Numbered from the stretch's first letter, positions 20,929-28,996 are shown. The stretch is DNA of 61,027 bases from a bacterium (GCA_016781505.1 JADDQF010000128.1:3021-64047); one strand, 5' to 3'. Numbers and translations are program-made. The notes: generated from the sequence alone by a model not told the origin.

Positions 20929-21780
20929 CTACAGCTGCTGTGCGCGCGCCGCATGCAGCACATTGCGCAGCAGCATCATGTTGGTTACCGGACCTGTCCC
21001 GCCCGGCACGGGCGTGATCGCGCCGGCGACCTCGGCCGCGCTCCCATAGTCAACATCCCCGACGACCTGCCCCGCTCCCATTTCATTGATGCCAAAGTCT
21101 ACGACGACCGCCCCCGGCTTTAACATAGCACCCGTTACGATTCCAGCTCTGCCTACCGCTACCGCCACCACATCAGCCGAACCAACAATGGCTGCAAGGT
21201 TTGGCGTGCGCGAGTGTGCAACGGTAACCGTGGCATGTTCTTGAAGCAGCAGCAACGCCATCGGCTTGCCCACGATATTTGAGCGACCCACCACCACCGC
21301 GTGTTTACCGGCAAGCGAAATGTTATAGTGCCGCAGTAGCTCCATCCCCCCGGCCGGCGTATTCGGTACCAGCGCAGGTAAGCCCTGGGCAAGGCGTCCC
21401 AGGTTGACGGGATGCAGTCCGTCCACATCCTTGCGCGGATCCAGCGCATCAATCACCGCTGCTCCGTCAAGATGCTGGGGGAGCGGCACCTGCACAATGA
21501 TCCCATGTGTTTCCGGCCGGGCATTAAGTTGCTGTATCTGGGCGATCAGCGCGTCCTGCTCAATATCGGCGGGTAGCTGCGCAAGCTGGAACGTGATGCC
21601 AACGTGCTGACAAGCGCGGCTGATCGCTCGTACGTACCAGTCCGAAGCCGCATCCCCATGCACTTGCACGACATCCAGGCGCGGTGGGCTGCTGTATTGC
21701 TGTTGAAACTCCCGAACCCCAGCGCGTAGCTCTTCCCGCAACGTCGCCGCGACGCTTCGCCCATCCAGAATGAGTGGCAT
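20929..21780 (-). CDS. folD: FolD-type methylenetetrahydrofolate dehydrogenase (cyclohydrolase lysine absent)
   Basis: The 283-residue protein is full length for FolD and has VQVPLPQHLD, DPRKDVDGLHPVN and the NADP-binding VVGRSNIVGKP. FolD normally oxidises methylene-THF and hydrolyses methenyl-THF. In E. coli the catalytic lysine for hydrolysis lies in Y-V-A-S-K; here the same block reads Y49-V-R-A-I53, so the lysine is isoleucine. I checked this codon (ATC) on the reverse strand. Dehydrogenase activity is plausible but cyclohydrolase activity is doubtful. The gene converges on the RsbV-like gene across a strong terminator. Confidence 0.92.
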   Translation of the reverse strand: MPLILDGRSVAATLREELRAGVREFQQQYSSPPRLDVVQVHGDAASDWYVRAISRACQHVGITFQLAQLPADIEQDALIAQIQQLNARPETHGIIVQVPLPQHLDGAAVIDALDPRKDVDGLHPVNLGRLAQGLPALVPNTPAGGMELLRHYNISLAGKHAVVVGRSNIVGKPMALLLLQEHATVTVAHSRTPNLAAIVGSADVVAVAVGRAGIVTGAMLKPGAVVVDFGINEMGAGQVVGDVDYGSAAEVAGAITPVPGGTGPVTNMMLLRNVLHAARAQQL

Positions 21781-21967: not shown

Positions 21968-21995
21968 TTGACAACTTTTCAATATTCGGTATAAT
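21968..21995 (+). promoter_or_regulatory. Consensus promoter of the first S8 protease (copy A)
   Basis: TTGACA (21968-21973), a 16-bp spacer and TATAAT (21990-21995) match the sigma-70 consensus in both hexamers. The same promoter, base for base including the spacer, recurs at 26521-26548 in front of the second S8 protease. Confidence 0.9.
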
Positions 21996-22250
21996 TTGCG
22001 CACCCAAAACAAAGTTGGTACTCCAGTACCAGCAAGATACGCTACCAAACAATAGTTGTGTGTGACACAGTCGCTCCGCACTAATCGGCAGCATAGGTGC
22101 TGCACCGTCCGTTGGTCGCCTTGTTTCCCGTGCAAGGCGTATTGTTTCGTGCGCTCTTGCGCAGAAACCCAGCATTCCCCACATCCTGTCAGTTCGTTGG
22201 TGTTTGGTTTCTGTCCTGGTCCCAGTTCGACCTTTTGAGGAGAAGCCCAC
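21996..22250 (+). ncRNA. Long structured 5' leader of S8 protease A (candidate regulatory RNA)
   Basis: About 255 nt separate the -10 from the ATG. Short hairpins are visible in order: GGTACT/AGTACC (22017-22030), GCAGCA/TGCTGC (22088-22103), GCCTTG/CAAGGC (22118-22138), and TGCGC/GCGCA (22149-22162). A ribosome-binding site GAGGAG precedes the ATG. A leader of the same length and largely the same sequence precedes the second S8 protease. Several arms differ between copies in a way that keeps or shortens the pairing. I recognise no known riboswitch class. A transcription terminator is not evident inside it. Confidence 0.55.
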
Positions 22251-25200
22251 ATGTCCATGACGTCCAAACGGTTGTTCGGTTCCCTGCTTGCTGGCGCTTT
22301 GTCGCTCGCGCTCGTCCTACCCGCTGGTGCCGCACCCAACGGCCAAAAGAACAATCAACTGGGTAAACACGACCGCGAGCTGCTCGCGGCGGCGACCGCC
22401 CGTGGCGATAAGACGGTCACGTTGCTGATTGCAGCGAAACCTGGTTCAAACAGAACCGTGGCTAGTGGCATTGCAAGCCTTGGCGGCAGCGTTCGTTACC
22501 AGGATAACGACATCAGCTACATTCGAGCCGTCGTTCCGATTGCAAAGGCGGATGCCGCCGCCAACCTAAGTGGTATCGAGGCAGCCGACATCGACGAAAT
22601 CATCCCGCTCGAAGATCCCCGCCCTGAAGCGATCGGCGAAGCGACGCAGGTTGCTCCCCCAAGCGCCACGACGCCAAACGAAAACGCCTACATGCCCACC
22701 CGCGATATCGGTGCGCCGCAGTTCGTTGCCGCCAACCCAACCTGGGATGGTCGTGGCGTGACGGTTGGTATCGTTGATACTGGCATTGACCTGGATCACC
22801 CGGCGCTGCGCACGACCACCACTGGCGAGCGCAAGGTTGTTGATTGGGTTACCTACACCCATCCAACCGACGACAACGATCCGACCTGGGTTGATATGCA
22901 GGATCAGGTAAGCGGCGCCACGTTTAGTTACAAGGATGTGAGCTACACCGCTCCTGCGGCGGCTACGTACCGCATCGGTCTCTTCAATGAGCGTGACCGA
23001 CGGCTTGGCGGCGAGGTCGGCAGCGACGTGAACCGCGACGGCAACCCGGCAGGCAGCAAAGGTACATTTGCAGTGCTGTGGGATACCGCTACCAACAACG
23101 TGTACGTCGACACCAACCAGAACAACAGCTTTGCCGACGAGCAGGCGATGACTGACTTCAGCGTTCGCAACGACGTTGGCACGTTCGGCACCGATAACCC
23201 GGCTACACCGATCCGGGAAGCTATGCCGTTTGTTGTCCAGACGAAGTCGACGGCGGGTGACGCCAAGCGCTACGTCAACATCGGCATTGTGTCAGGCGCC
23301 CACGGCTCGCACGTCGGCGGTATTGTTGCGGCGAACAACATGTTTGGTGGGGATGTAGACGGGGCGGCACCAGGCGCGAAGCTTGTATCGGTGCGAGTTT
23401 GCTTGTTCATTAGTGGTTGTACGGCACACGCCTTGATCGAGGGTATGACCTGGGTTGCCAAGCAGGGCAACGTTGACGTGATCAACATGTCGATTGGCGG
23501 CCTGCCGGCGCTCAACGATGGCAATAACGTCCGTGCTATCCTTTATAACCGCCTGATCGAGCAGTACAACGTCCAAATGTTCATCTCGGCCGGCAACAGT
23601 GGCCCTGGCATCAACACCATCGGTGACCCATCGGCGGCGAGCAAGGTGATGAGCGTGGGCGCGTATGTCCACAAAGATACCTGGCTCAATAACTATGGTG
23701 CAGAAGCGACCAAAGACGACGGCATGTTTGTCTTCTCGTCGCGCGGCCCGCGTGAGGACGGCGGCTTCAAGCCCAACATTGTTGCGCCGGGTGCGGCAGT
23801 CTCGACAGTTCCGACGTGGCAACGGGGCGGTCCTGTCCCTGGAACGTATGCGCTGCCTGCTGGCTACGCGATGTTCAACGGTACCTCGATGGCTTCGCCC
23901 CAGGCCGCCGGTGGCGCGGCACTGCTGGTCAGTGCGGCCAAGCAGTCTGGCGCGCAGCATCAGCCCGCGCAACTCCGTCAGGCGATCAACTCGAGTGCTC
24001 GCTATCTGCCGGCTTACGGCGCACACGAGCAGGGTAATGGTTTGATGGACGTGGCTAAGGCGTGGGAAGCGCTCAGGCGTAATATCAAGACGGTCGGTAT
24101 CAGCAGTAGCGCGCCGATCAATACGGTGCTGAGTGGTTTCCTGGCAACTGCCAATCAGGGCCAGGGCATTTACGAGCGTGAAGGCTGGACCGCTGGGCAG
24201 ACCGGTCAGCGCACAATTACGTTCACCCGCACAACCGGCGGGTCGCGCGCCGTTACCTATAACTTGAGCTGGGTCGGCAACGACGGTACGTTCAAGAGTG
24301 CTGCGTCGATCAGCTTGCCGCTCAACAAGAGCGTAGCGCTGCCGGTCGAAATTGGTCCGGCTGGCGCTGGAGTCCACAGCGCGATCCTTAACCTGGATGA
24401 TCCGAATACGGTTGGGATCGATTACCAGACGATGAACACGGTCGTGGCGACGGAGGCCTTTACCACAGCCAATAACTACAGCCTCTCATACTCCGGCACA
24501 GCCGACCGGCCCGACAAGGCAACGTTCTTCTTCAATGTTCCGGCCAACACGCCCGCGTTCAAGATCGATGTGACCGCGACGAATGGCGCTCGCCTGCGCT
24601 TCCTGCGCTTCCATCCATTCGGCCTGGGGATCGAAAACAGCACGGCGGGCTATCAAACCGGTGGCACGCAAAGCCGCTCCTTGTCGAACCCACAGGCAGG
24701 CGTTTGGGAAGTGACGGTTGACAGCTCACGCCTTTCGCCGGTGAGCCAGGGGACCTTCACCATCACCGGCTCGATCCTGGGCGCGGATGTTTCGCCGAAC
24801 CCGGATGTGATCAACAGAGCCGCAGTGAACACGCCGGTCAACCGTGAGTACACCTTCACCAACCGGTTTGGAACGTTCACCGGTAATGCGGCCGGTACGG
24901 CTTTGGGCAGCGCGGTTGTGGCTCGCCCGACCATCGCCAACCTGGCCCAGCAGGTGTACACCGTCGAAGTTGACGCCGGCTCGACCTCGTTGACCGCCCG
25001 CATCGGCAACCCGTCTGACACCAACGCCGACCTTGACCTGTTCGTGATCAATGCGGCAGGCCGGGTGGTTGGCCAGGCGGCGGACGGCGACTCAGAAGAG
25101 GCGGTGACGATCACGAACCCGCCGGCCGGCACATACACCATTCTGGTGGACGGCTATGCGGTTCCGGCTGGTACAACGGCCTACGATTACCTGGATGTGT

Positions 25201-25403
25201 TCGCCAACGGCAAGTACGGCTCGGTCACGGTGACCGATGCAGCGGCCGTGCGCGCTCCTGGCGCGACATGGACCGCGCCGGGCGTGGTGACGGCGCAGGC
25301 AGCTCCGGCAGCCGGCCGCATCCTGCTTGGCAACGTGCTTGTCCGGGCCGGCGCCACGACGGTCGGCTCGGGCACTGTTCAGGTCTTGAACGTCGCGCCG
25401 TAA
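22251..25403 (+). CDS. Secreted S8 subtilisin-like protease with PPC domain
   Basis: The 1050-residue precursor has a signal peptide (1-27, ending AGA), a propeptide-like segment to about 120, and the S8 catalytic domain. The triad is Asp176 (GIVDTGID), His351 (GAHGSHVGG) and Ser546 (FNGTSMASP), with oxyanion Asn449 in SAGNSG. The Asp-to-His spacing of about 175 residues is far above the ~30 in subtilisin. The extra segment carries D-x-N-x-D-G-like Ca-binding loops around 259-265 and 287-297. Beta-rich domains follow, including a PPC domain (about 895-985). Expression is through the long leader shared with the third protease. Confidence 0.92.
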   Translation: MSMTSKRLFGSLLAGALSLALVLPAGAAPNGQKNNQLGKHDRELLAAATARGDKTVTLLIAAKPGSNRTVASGIASLGGSVRYQDNDISYIRAVVPIAKADAAANLSGIEAADIDEIIPLEDPRPEAIGEATQVAPPSATTPNENAYMPTRDIGAPQFVAANPTWDGRGVTVGIVDTGIDLDHPALRTTTTGERKVVDWVTYTHPTDDNDPTWVDMQDQVSGATFSYKDVSYTAPAAATYRIGLFNERDRRLGGEVGSDVNRDGNPAGSKGTFAVLWDTATNNVYVDTNQNNSFADEQAMTDFSVRNDVGTFGTDNPATPIREAMPFVVQTKSTAGDAKRYVNIGIVSGAHGSHVGGIVAANNMFGGDVDGAAPGAKLVSVRVCLFISGCTAHALIEGMTWVAKQGNVDVINMSIGGLPALNDGNNVRAILYNRLIEQYNVQMFISAGNSGPGINTIGDPSAASKVMSVGAYVHKDTWLNNYGAEATKDDGMFVFSSRGPREDGGFKPNIVAPGAAVSTVPTWQRGGPVPGTYALPAGYAMFNGTSMASPQAAGGAALLVSAAKQSGAQHQPAQLRQAINSSARYLPAYGAHEQGNGLMDVAKAWEALRRNIKTVGISSSAPINTVLSGFLATANQGQGIYEREGWTAGQTGQRTITFTRTTGGSRAVTYNLSWVGNDGTFKSAASISLPLNKSVALPVEIGPAGAGVHSAILNLDDPNTVGIDYQTMNTVVATEAFTTANNYSLSYSGTADRPDKATFFFNVPANTPAFKIDVTATNGARLRFLRFHPFGLGIENSTAGYQTGGTQSRSLSNPQAGVWEVTVDSSRLSPVSQGTFTITGSILGADVSPNPDVINRAAVNTPVNREYTFTNRFGTFTGNAAGTALGSAVVARPTIANLAQQVYTVEVDAGSTSLTARIGNPSDTNADLDLFVINAAGRVVGQAADGDSEEAVTITNPPAGTYTILVDGYAVPAGTTAYDYLDVFANGKYGSVTVTDAAAVRAPGATWTAPGVVTAQAAPAAGRILLGNVLVRAGATTVGSGTVQVLNVAP

Positions 25404-25419
25404 ATCGTTCTTAGCGGTG

Positions 25420-25453
25420 AGCAGCTCCCGTCAACGGCGATGGGGGCTGTTCT
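25420..25453 (+). terminator. Intrinsic terminator of S8 protease A
   Basis: GCAGCTCCCGTC pairs with GATGGGGGCTG, with G-T and A-C imperfections, followed by TTCT. Its shape matches the terminators after the next two proteases. Confidence 0.6.
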
Positions 25454-25576
25454 ACGTAATTGAACGTCTCGCATTGCTGTACGGCGTAGAGCTGAACTTG
25501 ATATTTCAACATGTTCGATGCAAAGTCTCATTTGGAGCACTGCGTTGAGCTGCTGTCTAGATGGAGGAGCAATTAC

Positions 25577-26377
25577 ATGAAAGCACAACGGTTGGCAAAG
25601 CTCTTGATTGTGTGCATGATGCTGCTGTTAGCGGTCGCACCTGCTTGGGCAGTTACTTCGGGAGAGCCAGATGGCAATGACCATCCGTATGTCGGGCTGG
25701 TCGCGCTGTACGACGCCGAAGGCACCTATATCGGGCGGTGTAGTGGCACGCTGCTGTCGTCAACAGTGGTGCTGACGGCTGGTCACTGCACGTTCGATGC
25801 GGCTTCGGCTCGTGTCTATTTTGAGCCGGTTGTGGAGGCGAACCTCCGAGAACCAGGAAACACGGGGTATTTGGGAACGACGGTAACCCATCCGGAGTAC
25901 GCTAATTTCGCTGGCTTTCCCAACACCCACGACCTTGGTCTTATCTTGCTGGATGAGTCGGTCGAGACCGAAACGATTGGTGAACTTGCCGAGCCGAACA
26001 CCCTTGATGCTCTCGCAACCAAGCGCGGTCAGCAGGAAACAACCTTTGATGTCGTTGGGTATGGCCTCCAAAGCGTGAAGCCTAAGCTTCAGGCGGATCG
26101 AGTGCGCTACCAAGGCACCGTCCAGTTCGTAAATCTGCGCAGCGCCCTTACCGATGGTTTCAACTTGCAGCACTCAGGTAGCCCAGGCAAGGGCACGGGA
26201 GGAGCCGGTACCTGCTTCGGCGACTCCGGTGGTCCCGTATTCCTGCCAGGCACGAACATCATCGTGGCCGTTACGTCCTTTGGCCTGAATAGCAACTGCG
26301 CTGGACCAGGCTTTGCCTACCGTGTTGACATCGAAGAGTCGCTGGAATTCATCAACCAATACCTTACGAATTCCTAA
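25577..26377 (+). CDS. Secreted trypsin-like S1 serine protease
   Basis: The 266-residue precursor has a signal peptide (1-25, ending AWA) and a chymotrypsin-fold domain. The triad is His70 (LTAGHC), Asp119 (THDLGLILLD) and Ser217 (GDSGGP). Cys55 and Cys71 can form the bracket disulfide around the His. The ATG at 25577 has GGAGGAGC upstream. No trypsin-like Asp at the S1 base was confidently placed. It lies between two S8 genes, sharing their type of terminator but not their leader. Confidence 0.9.
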   Translation: MKAQRLAKLLIVCMMLLLAVAPAWAVTSGEPDGNDHPYVGLVALYDAEGTYIGRCSGTLLSSTVVLTAGHCTFDAASARVYFEPVVEANLREPGNTGYLGTTVTHPEYANFAGFPNTHDLGLILLDESVETETIGELAEPNTLDALATKRGQQETTFDVVGYGLQSVKPKLQADRVRYQGTVQFVNLRSALTDGFNLQHSGSPGKGTGGAGTCFGDSGGPVFLPGTNIIVAVTSFGLNSNCAGPGFAYRVDIEESLEFINQYLTNS

Positions 26378-26402
26378 GATAGCGCTGGCCTCCATCAGAC
26401 CG

Positions 26403-26441
26403 CAGCCCTCATCAATGGCGATGGGGGCTGTTCTGTTTCTT
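26403..26441 (+). terminator. Intrinsic terminator of the S1 protease
   Basis: CAGCCCTCATC and GATGGGGGCTG form a stem around AATGGC, followed by TTCTGTTTCTT. It is closely similar to the terminator after the third protease. Confidence 0.8.
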
Positions 26442-26520
26442 AATGTGATATACGTCTCTTGATACGGCAATAGCTGGAGACCTCGTCCACTTTGTTTCTT
26501 ACTTCGTCAATAAAAATAAT

Positions 26521-26548
26521 TTGACAACTTTTCAATATTCGGTATAAT
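26521..26548 (+). promoter_or_regulatory. Consensus promoter of the second S8 protease (copy B)
   Basis: TTGACA (26521-26526), a 16-bp spacer and TATAAT (26543-26548) are present. The spacer is identical to that of copy A at 21968-21995. Confidence 0.9.
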
Positions 26549-26804
26549 TTGCGCACCGAAAACAAAATTGGTACTCGTGTACCGACGAGGTACGCTACCA
26601 GACAATAGTTGTGTGTGACTCAGCCGCTCCGCACTAATCGGCAGCATAGGAGCTGCACCGCCCGTTGGTCGCCTTGTTATTTGCAAGGTGTGTTGTTTTG
26701 TGCGCTCTTTCGCAGGCGCCCAATATCCCCCTACACATCCTGTGGATTCGTTGGTGTTCGGTTTCTGTCCTGGTCCCAGTTCAACCTTTTTAGGAGAAGC
26801 CTAC
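26549..26804 (+). ncRNA. Long 5' leader of S8 protease B, homologous to the copy-A leader
   Basis: The ~256-nt leader aligns nearly end to end with 21996-22250. Hairpins correspond with sequence changes: GGTAC/GTACC here versus GGTACT/AGTACC, GCAGC/GCTGC versus GCAGCA/TGCTGC, and TGCG/CGCA versus TGCGC/GCGCA. GGTCCCAGTTC and a strong AGGAG ribosome-binding site close both leaders. I treat it as a candidate cis-acting RNA. Confidence 0.55.
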
Positions 26805-28232
26805 ATGTCCTCCACGTTCAAACGGTTGTTCGGTTCATTCCTCACGCTCATCCTTGCGCTATCGTTTGCGTTAACCGCCTCACCCGCCAGCGCTTCGAGT
26901 GACGCGAAGTCGTATGTCATCATTGCTAGGGACAATAGACTGCCAGCAAAGCTAGCAGAAGCAGTTCGGGCAAATGGTGGGACGATCACACAGGCGATTC
27001 CTGAAATCGGTGTCGCTGTAGCCACCTCAGACAATCCAATGTTTGCGGATAGCGCAGCTAAGATAGCCGGTGTCCAAGCGGTTGTGCTTAACGTGACCAT
27101 GCAGTGGCTCGAACCCAATGAAGAGCAGGTGGTTGGTGTAGCAGTTGGTGACGCTTCTGCCAGTGGTGCAAGCAACCCTGGCCTGGCGCTCCAATGGGGC
27201 CATACTGCAGTCGCGGCGCTGCCAGCGTGGGAGGCTGATGCCCGAGGCGCAGGCGTGCGGGTGGCAGTGCTCGATAGCGGTATTGATGCTGAGCATCCTG
27301 ATATTGCGCCGAACTTAAACACATCACTCAGCAAGTCGTTTGTTTCCGGTGAGCAATACAACATCCGACCCGGCACCTATTTCAACCACGGCACACACGT
27401 AGCAGGAACGATTGCTGCTGCTGACAATTCTGTTGGTACGGTCGGTGTCGCTCCCGATGCCGAAATTGTTGCGGTAAAGGTTTTATCAGAAGTTACTGGG
27501 AGCGGTTCGTTTGCTGGCGTTGCAGCGGGTATGGTGTACGCGGCGAAGATCGACGCCGACATCATCAACATGAGCTTGGGCGGGCGGTTACCATCACACC
27601 GGCTCTGCTTCCCGGAAGGTTGTCTCAGCGCCAACGCAGTGACCGAGCTAGTGAACATGATGGCCCGAGCGGCGAATTATGCGTACCAGCAAGGTACTGC
27701 CGTTATCGCTTCTGCTGGCAATTCCGCCATTGATCGCGACCATGACAACGACCAGATCAATCTACCGTCCGATCTGCCCAACGTGTTAACTATCTCCGCG
27801 ACTGGTCCTGAAGGTTGGGCGCGCAACCCTAACACTAACTTGGATACGCCGGCTTTCTACACCAACTACGGCCAGTCCGTGATTGATTTTGCTGCTCCTG
27901 GTGGTGACGTCGACTTCTCGCTCCGTCCGGGAGGCGTTGCGAATCGTGCAAATTGGCCTAAGTGCACTGTGGCTGGCCAGACAAATGAATGCTACGTGTT
28001 TGATCTCGTCTACAGTACGATCAGTGAAGGATGGGGTTGGGCTGCCGGCACGAGCATGGCAGCGCCGCACGCATCAGGTGTTGCAGCTCTCATTATTGGT
28101 CAAAATGGCGGTTCGATGCATCCAGCACAGGTTCAGGCTGCAATGCAAGCTGCCGCCGACGACCTTGGTAAGACGGGTAAAGATGATTTCTATGGTAACG
28201 GGCGGGTAAACGCGGTCAACGCCGTTCGGTAG
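26805..28232 (+). CDS. Secreted S8 subtilisin-like protease (short form)
   Basis: The 475-residue precursor has a signal peptide (1-30, ending ASA), an inhibitor-I9-like propeptide (about 34-105), and an S8 domain with Asp157 (AVLDSGID), His195 (NHGTHVAGT), oxyanion Asn306 (SAGNS) and Ser417 (GTSMAAPHA). Spacing is normal for subtilisins and no PPC domain follows. The first residues share KRLFGS and a similar hydrophobic core with protease A, although the mature parts differ. The ATG at 26805 has AGGAG upstream. Confidence 0.93.
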   Translation: MSSTFKRLFGSFLTLILALSFALTASPASASSDAKSYVIIARDNRLPAKLAEAVRANGGTITQAIPEIGVAVATSDNPMFADSAAKIAGVQAVVLNVTMQWLEPNEEQVVGVAVGDASASGASNPGLALQWGHTAVAALPAWEADARGAGVRVAVLDSGIDAEHPDIAPNLNTSLSKSFVSGEQYNIRPGTYFNHGTHVAGTIAAADNSVGTVGVAPDAEIVAVKVLSEVTGSGSFAGVAAGMVYAAKIDADIINMSLGGRLPSHRLCFPEGCLSANAVTELVNMMARAANYAYQQGTAVIASAGNSAIDRDHDNDQINLPSDLPNVLTISATGPEGWARNPNTNLDTPAFYTNYGQSVIDFAAPGGDVDFSLRPGGVANRANWPKCTVAGQTNECYVFDLVYSTISEGWGWAAGTSMAAPHASGVAALIIGQNGGSMHPAQVQAAMQAAADDLGKTGKDDFYGNGRVNAVNAVR

Positions 28233-28248: not shown

Positions 28249-28286
28249 AGCAGCCCTCATCACTCGTGATGGGGGCTGCTTTGTTT
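28249..28286 (+). terminator. Intrinsic terminator of the second S8 protease
   Basis: AGCAGCCCTCATCAC and GTGATGGGGGCTGCT form a 15-bp stem (one wobble) with loop TC, followed by TTGTTT. Confidence 0.88.
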
Positions 28287-28357
28287 AACGCGCCATTGAC
28301 GCTATGGGCCCACTCCGCTACAATCCGCGCAACCCACCGACGATGGAGCACCGGCCC

Positions 28358-28996
28358 ATGAACATGCCTGTGTTGTTGCTTGCCCTTGCGCTGAGCTACC
28401 TGCTTGGAGCGGTGCCGTTTGCCGTACTGGTGGGCAAGCGGCTGCGGGGCATCGATGTGCAGCGAACGGGTAGTGGCAATGCCGGTGCGATGAACACCTT
28501 TCGCAACGTCGGGCGTGGGGCCGGTGTGCTTGTTGCGCTGCTGGATGGCCTTAAAGCTGCCGCAGCGATGCTGTTCGGGTGCCTGCTGCTTGGCCCGGAA
28601 GGGGCGGCGCTGTGTGGAGCTGCGGGTGTAGCAGGACACTGCTTCTCGCCATTTCTGATCGTGCAAGCCCGGAACGAGCCCGCCCGTAGCTGGAAACACT
28701 GGCTGCGGCAAACGGGCGGCAAAGGCCTTGCTTCGGGCATTGTGGTGCTGCTGTTGGTCGATTGGCGGCTGGCCGTGATCGCGCTGGCGGTCTTTCTGGT
28801 GACGAGGAAGCTCGTGTTCAAGGATGAAACCTGGCCTTCGATCATCGGGGTTGGCCTAACGCCACCGTTGGTGTGGTGGTTCACGGCCAGCTTGCCGATC
28901 ACGATCGCGGTATTGCTGGTAAGCGTGATCGTGATTGTTAAGCACCTGCCAGACGCACGTGAAGGTTTTTATGTAGCCATGCGCAATGAGCAATAG
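28358..28996 (+). CDS. plsY: Glycerol-3-phosphate acyltransferase PlsY
   Basis: The 212-residue multi-pass membrane protein carries the PlsY motifs SGNAGAMNTFR (about 43-53), GHCFSPFL (about 95-102) and GGKGLASG (about 121-128). It transfers an acyl group from acyl phosphate to glycerol-3-phosphate, the first step of phospholipid synthesis. I chose the ATG at 28358 because GGAG lies nine bases upstream. It precedes trpA by 56 bp on the same strand. The segment 28997-29052 holds only a ribosome-binding site. Confidence 0.9.
   Translation: MNMPVLLLALALSYLLGAVPFAVLVGKRLRGIDVQRTGSGNAGAMNTFRNVGRGAGVLVALLDGLKAAAAMLFGCLLLGPEGAALCGAAGVAGHCFSPFLIVQARNEPARSWKHWLRQTGGKGLASGIVVLLLVDWRLAVIALAVFLVTRKLVFKDETWPSIIGVGLTPPLVWWFTASLPITIAVLLVSVIVIVKHLPDAREGFYVAMRNEQ

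Follow-up and report, generated by a model that had tools for sequence, protein, structure and literature searches.

We analysed a 61,027-nt stretch of DNA from a bacterium of the Chloroflexota (GCA_016781505.1 JADDQF010000128.1:3021-64047; hereafter, the window), in which two genes for secreted S8 proteases lie between folD and plsY. Its genome is referred to as G000, and five relatives of the same family as G001 to G005. The features of the locus are as follows, with positions counted from the first letter of the window.

20929-21780, minus strand: folD, left border of the slot; syntenic in G002, G003 and G005
21968-21995, plus strand: promoter 1, TTGACA-16-TATAAT, 12/12 consensus, spacer common with promoter 2
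21996-22250, plus strand: leader 1, 255 nt from the -10 box to ATG (sequence; homologues in 5 other genomes)
22014-22033, plus strand: predicted hairpin of pseudo-palindrome 1 plus flanks, 8 bp with a 4-nt loop
22017-22030, plus strand: pseudo-palindrome 1, GGTACTCCAGTACC (sequence and promoter comparison)
22117-22139, plus strand: central helix 1, CGCCTTG...CAAGGCG, then a broken U-run (weakly terminator-like)
22238-22242, plus strand: Shine-Dalgarno sequence AGGAG of leader 1 (sequence)
22251-22286, plus strand: first 12 codons, conserved (MSMTSKRLFGSL), a positively charged export-signal start
22251-25403, plus strand: secreted S8 protease 1, 1050 aa, Peptidase_S8 and PPC (Pfam)
25577-26377, plus strand: secreted trypsin-family protease between the two S8 units, without such a leader (Pfam)
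26521-26548, plus strand: promoter 2, TTGACA-16-TATAAT, 12/12 consensus
26549-26804, plus strand: leader 2, 256 nt from the -10 box to ATG (sequence, alignment)
26570-26583, plus strand: pseudo-palindrome 2, GGTACTCGTGTACC; with flanks, a predicted 7-bp hairpin
26670-26690, plus strand: central helix 2, CGCCTTG...CAAGGTG
26792-26796, plus strand: Shine-Dalgarno sequence AGGAG of leader 2 (sequence)
26805-28232, plus strand: secreted S8 protease 2, 475 aa, start MSSTFKRLFGS (Pfam)
28304-28996, plus strand: plsY, right border of the slot, then trpA and uvrD; syntenic in G001, G002, G003 and G005

The stretches 21968-22286 and 26521-26840 are 85-87% identical (BLAST E 5.5e-106) in an alignment that runs from AATTTGACA to the codons for KRLFGS, and the similarity is gone upstream of the -35 box and past about codon 12. 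Both promoters, of the sigma-70 type, score 12/12 against the consensus. A first-pass annotation of the window had described two starts matching in promoter, spacer, leader length and KRLFGS codons, and its coordinates and lengths proved accurate. It had also held that the mature proteases differ strongly, and indeed the two proteins, each with a Peptidase_S8 domain above the curated Pfam cut-off (145.7 and 169.6 bits), are 1050 and 475 aa long and ~29% identical over matched stretches. A genome search found exactly two leader copies in G000.

Plain BLAST of the DNA against 100 relatives returned nothing but the two window copies and was too insensitive, and profile models were used instead. 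In the congener G003, the orthologue of protease 1 (70-71% amino acid identity) has the ATTCGGTATAATTTG promoter end found in the window, the pseudo-palindrome consensus GGTACTTTAGTACC, a 264-nt leader and the protein start MSTPFKRLFGS. Searching 60 genomes with a promoter-plus-palindrome pattern gave four matches, all in the window's genus (a reversed control pattern gave one), the new one being a G003 copy before a propeller protein. A first sequence profile, built solely from the window and G003 copies (four sequences), yielded full-length leaders in G002 (E 1.5e-13), G001 (E 3.1e-10) and G005, which belongs to another genus (E 5.8e-10); G004 has two weaker, shorter copies, with leaders of 109 and 205 nt. 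Profile searches thus place the module in 6/6 genomes of the family, with nine clear copies and one tentative copy, and the leader measures 227-264 nt in seven of them. The tentative copy, in G003 (E 0.02; GGTACTTTAATCCC; palindrome score 12/14; a leader of ~400 nt and a BNR-type secreted protein behind it), was left out of every model. The last model was trained on all nine clear copies, whose separation there is partly by construction, and the independent evidence for leader homologues is the search with the window and G003 model. S8 proteases that belong to different subfamilies (~25-33% identity) stand behind the module, as do BNR/sortilin-like propellers and a single unassigned secreted protein.

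Beyond the family, a search of 114 genomes from its order and class, which scored few candidates per genome and could miss weak copies, found no convincing leader copy; those sub-threshold profile matches that were inspected sat in unrelated or coding sequence. No leader was seen by eye at protease 1 orthologues outside the family (Anaerolineales, Thermomicrobiales, actinomycete and other records). The actinomycete orthologues, in records L037, L038 and L042 (a Nocardioides MAG, Terrabacter and Terracoccus), are ~61-66% identical to protease 1, suggesting transfer between phyla, and do not share the leader.

Four genomes, G000, G002, G003 and G005, share the gene order ACC carboxylase, (RsbW-like), STAS, folD (divergent), slot, plsY, trpA, uvrD, and in all four the slot contains a leader copy. 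In G000 the slot holds leader-S8 (1050 aa), the trypsin-family gene and leader-S8 (475 aa); in G002, leader-S8 (515 aa); in G003, promoter/palindrome-propeller, leader-S8 (1058 aa) and a second S8 gene without its own leader; and in G005, leader-S8 (882 aa) and a trypsin-family gene, whose product is a 44% homologue of that encoded at 25577-26377. The G001 contig begins within the slot, with an S8 protease of the 1050 type there. Protease 1 of G000 and that of G003 are orthologues, and the other slot proteases are about 25-33% identical. The leader is thus handed down at this position with differing proteins behind it. Away from the slot, it precedes sortilin/BNR-like propellers in G003, G001 and G004, and the unassigned secreted protein in G004.

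Conservation, expressed as the median pairwise z over seven copies, was 5.5 for the promoter, 5.2 for the whole leader and 6.0 for codons 1-12, as against 0.9 for the 250 nt upstream, 1.8 for the leader middle and 2.0 for codons 13-95; the sole high upstream value (9.7, leader 1 with G002) corresponds to the shared folD gene. The 70%-identical protease 1 pair shows 48% identity at fourfold sites, close to the overall leader identity of 55%, which indicates that the leader middle is near-neutral and both ends are held. The constrained parts are the promoter, the pseudo-palindrome, a central helix (5/7 leaders), the last ~45 nt and codons 1-12. All seven aligned leaders have a strong ribosome-binding site, AGGAG or GGAGG, a few nucleotides ahead of the ATG, and the protein start MSxxxKR(L/F) is kept across the aligned proteins, with departures in G003b (KQF) and G004a (MPKLSKR). 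Control through a leader peptide was considered and rejected: the leaders contain no conserved uORF with a start codon and ribosome site, no reading frame is conserved, and substitutions between leaders 1 and 2 are spread evenly over the three phases (12/11/10).

The pseudo-palindrome lies 19-30 nt past the -10 box and scores at least 10/14 in 9/10 module promoters, compared with 1/43 of the other strong promoters examined. It could be a DNA operator, with RGTAC(T)nn(A)GTACC, just past the promoter, as the binding site of a dimeric regulator of the LexA kind or another; the exoprotein regulon would be very small and the rest of the leader mostly passive. We consider this quite possible, at somewhat less than even odds. 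There are ten GGTACTTTAGTACC-like sites, whose inner T and A would be unable to pair in an RNA hairpin, and these loop letters are kept (T at position 6 in 8/10, A at position 9 in 7/10) even where pairing fails. The mispaired versions, in G002, G004a and the tentative G003 copy, likewise retain the sequence. Furthermore, 5/10 palindromes fit the cyanobacterial LexA box consensus RGTACNNNDGTWCB (PMC3091678), whereas the other half do not, and no SOS gene came up with the motif. However, a genome-wide scan across the genus for the exact motif GGTACN4GTACC found no enrichment, with counts overall no higher than for the reversed control, so that no larger operator regulon is visible. The variable spacing from the -10 box and the stems that reach beyond the 14-mer in leader 1, G001 and G004b also speak against an operator, which would leave the conserved 3' end of the leader and codons 1-12 unexplained.

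Alternatively, the palindrome could act as RNA, forming a hairpin ~10-20 nt from the 5' end that shields the mRNA from 5'-end-dependent decay in the manner of aprE, which we consider only slightly less probable than an operator. With the 5' end inferred from the promoter, such a stem-loop is predicted in most copies and mispaired in three: stems of 5-8 bp closing 4-nt loops occur in the two window copies, the two G003 copies and G004b, and G001 has a longer stem with a bulge. Pair changes, from U-A to G-C in G005 and from G-C to A-U in G004a and G004b, are consistent with this view. Against it, 72% of the palindrome cells are paired, compared with 68.7% in shuffles (101/500 as high; slid controls, 20-43%); the pairing being no better than in shuffles, the palindrome is best described as an inverted repeat with little covariation. 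The broken pairs in three members and the hairpins of similar strength after several unrelated strong promoters in these genomes weigh in the same direction; the 5' hairpin was accordingly rejected as a rare feature, only the shared sequence being distinctive. The first-pass annotation had read a paired arm change, GGTACT/AGTACC versus GGTAC/GTACC, into the two window copies. That reading fails, as the GGTAC/GTACC core is identical in both and the extra T and A, opposed with a gap of 2 nt between them, are unable to pair; the changes in the outer pairs are confined to G-U/A-U exchanges in the 3' arm and the loss of one pair. Because the palindrome's sequence, loop letters included, is kept better than its pairing, we lean slightly towards recognition of the sequence.

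The nearest functional precedent is the Bacillus subtilis aprE leader, in which a strong promoter, a 5' stem-loop (here a predicted one) and a strong ribosome-binding site likewise precede the gene for a secreted S8 protease. At about 58 nt, that leader is much shorter, whereas the present one, at 227-264 nt in the seven copies, is common to several genes and is joined to conserved first codons. The 5' hairpin would thus have a precedent in a subtilisin gene, whose stem-loop confers a very long mRNA half-life according to passages in PMC11805744 and PMC3997798 that cite Hambraeus 2000 and 2002.

Within the leader, the central helix gives moderate support for RNA covariation. Its seven pairs are complete (35/35 cells) in five of the seven leaders, with double changes at three positions (C-G to U-A, U-A to C-G and U-A to A-U), and 0.85% of shuffles did as well, a figure that depends on a hand alignment with one bulge in G003a and on a helix chosen after inspection. 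Clean double changes are seen only in the central helix; palindrome covariation does not rise above shuffles. It appears improbable that the leader is a riboswitch sensing a ligand, or an attenuator, in which the central helix would serve as terminator. A U-rich run does follow the helix in both window copies, and a 59%-identical protease gene lies behind two c-di-GMP-II aptamers in another Chloroflexota genome. However, the U-run is absent in G005 and the helix is incomplete or absent in G001 and G003b; a transcription attenuator with a conserved terminator stem and U-run was rejected on these counts. Rfam covariance models gave no gathering-level match in the window and none up to E 10 on either leader. 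A globally folded regulatory RNA was likewise set aside, with 6/7 leaders not clearly more stable than dinucleotide shuffles and leader 1 alone standing out (z -4.2). The c-di-GMP-II aptamers mentioned above, to whose family the window leaders do not match, are two in tandem, one a GAG variant, at 5464-5684 of L041 (JACRPR010000085.1, a groundwater Chloroflexi MAG), on the same strand as the protease 1 orthologue and ~220 nt before its start.

Leaders 1 and 2 are 85% identical, compared with 55% between leader 1 and the orthologous G003 leader, which implies that one window leader was recently copied or converted; yet mere duplication or gene conversion between neighbours, without function, is very improbable except as the origin of the second copy, being contradicted by the occurrence of homologous leaders, in some cases ahead of unrelated genes, in five other genomes and by the sharp conservation of particular parts.

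We therefore favour, with a probability of roughly 0.6, a portable expression cassette, conserved throughout this family of Chloroflexota, that serves secreted proteins. The presence of homologous leaders in all five relatives indicates that the leader is under separate selection and runs counter to the possibility, raised at the outset, that conservation ends at the promoter. The first-pass annotation had left the choice between a regulatory RNA and a secretion cassette; the relatives and the syntenic slot support the cassette well, and the case for RNA is weaker. The cassette would join a strong housekeeping promoter to a pseudo-palindromic control element located where the transcript starts, then a long untranslated leader, a strong ribosome-binding site and the opening codons of the export signal. 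It would give exoproteins high, common expression, with new ones recruited behind it by recombination. The palindrome would be its control point, whether it is an operator bound by a regulator around +15 to +25 or an aprE-like, mRNA-protecting 5' hairpin, and the central helix and leader length may serve mRNA stability or ribosome access. As judged from sequence comparison, the cassette persists at the folD-plsY slot while the protease changes; at other loci, copies precede unrelated secreted proteins. Weighing against the cassette are the barely conserved leader middle, an overall leader identity near that of the fourfold sites, the short leaders of G004, and the palindrome's mispaired members, low covariation and lack of a larger regulon.

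More tentatively, the slot could be a leader-exchange locus, in which promoter, palindrome, leader and signal start form a stable, selected unit and the exoprotein is swapped by recombination in this start unit and in the downstream flank. Regulatory starts are usually regarded as belonging to a gene; here, the start would be inherited at the locus and the gene would be replaceable, so that a lineage could change its secreted proteases with regulation kept. Such exchange would account for the diversification of secreted enzymes in free-living Chloroflexota with no need to rebuild the signals for expression and export, and could offer a natural secretion cassette for a phylum with few genetic tools. 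The lactobacillar slpA/slpB S-layer cassettes also combine a common promoter, a long leader and a signal-peptide start with exchangeable exported proteins, but they belong to another phylum and other proteins, and no inversion switch is seen here, which makes the likeness one of analogy alone.

Near-copies of one terminator-like hairpin (core GATGGGGGCTG) stand at 25419-25452, 26402-26431 and 28249-28280, after protease 1, the trypsin-like gene and protease 2, respectively, and the cassette may include a shared terminator. Elsewhere, other consensus promoters in L125, L134 and L156 (G000, G003 and G002, respectively) are followed by strong hairpins of 9-10 bp (GCTGCCCCG...TGGGGCGGC and similar) that are conserved between the three species; in G002 (L156), the first ORF called downstream is a candidate NADH dehydrogenase subunit B.
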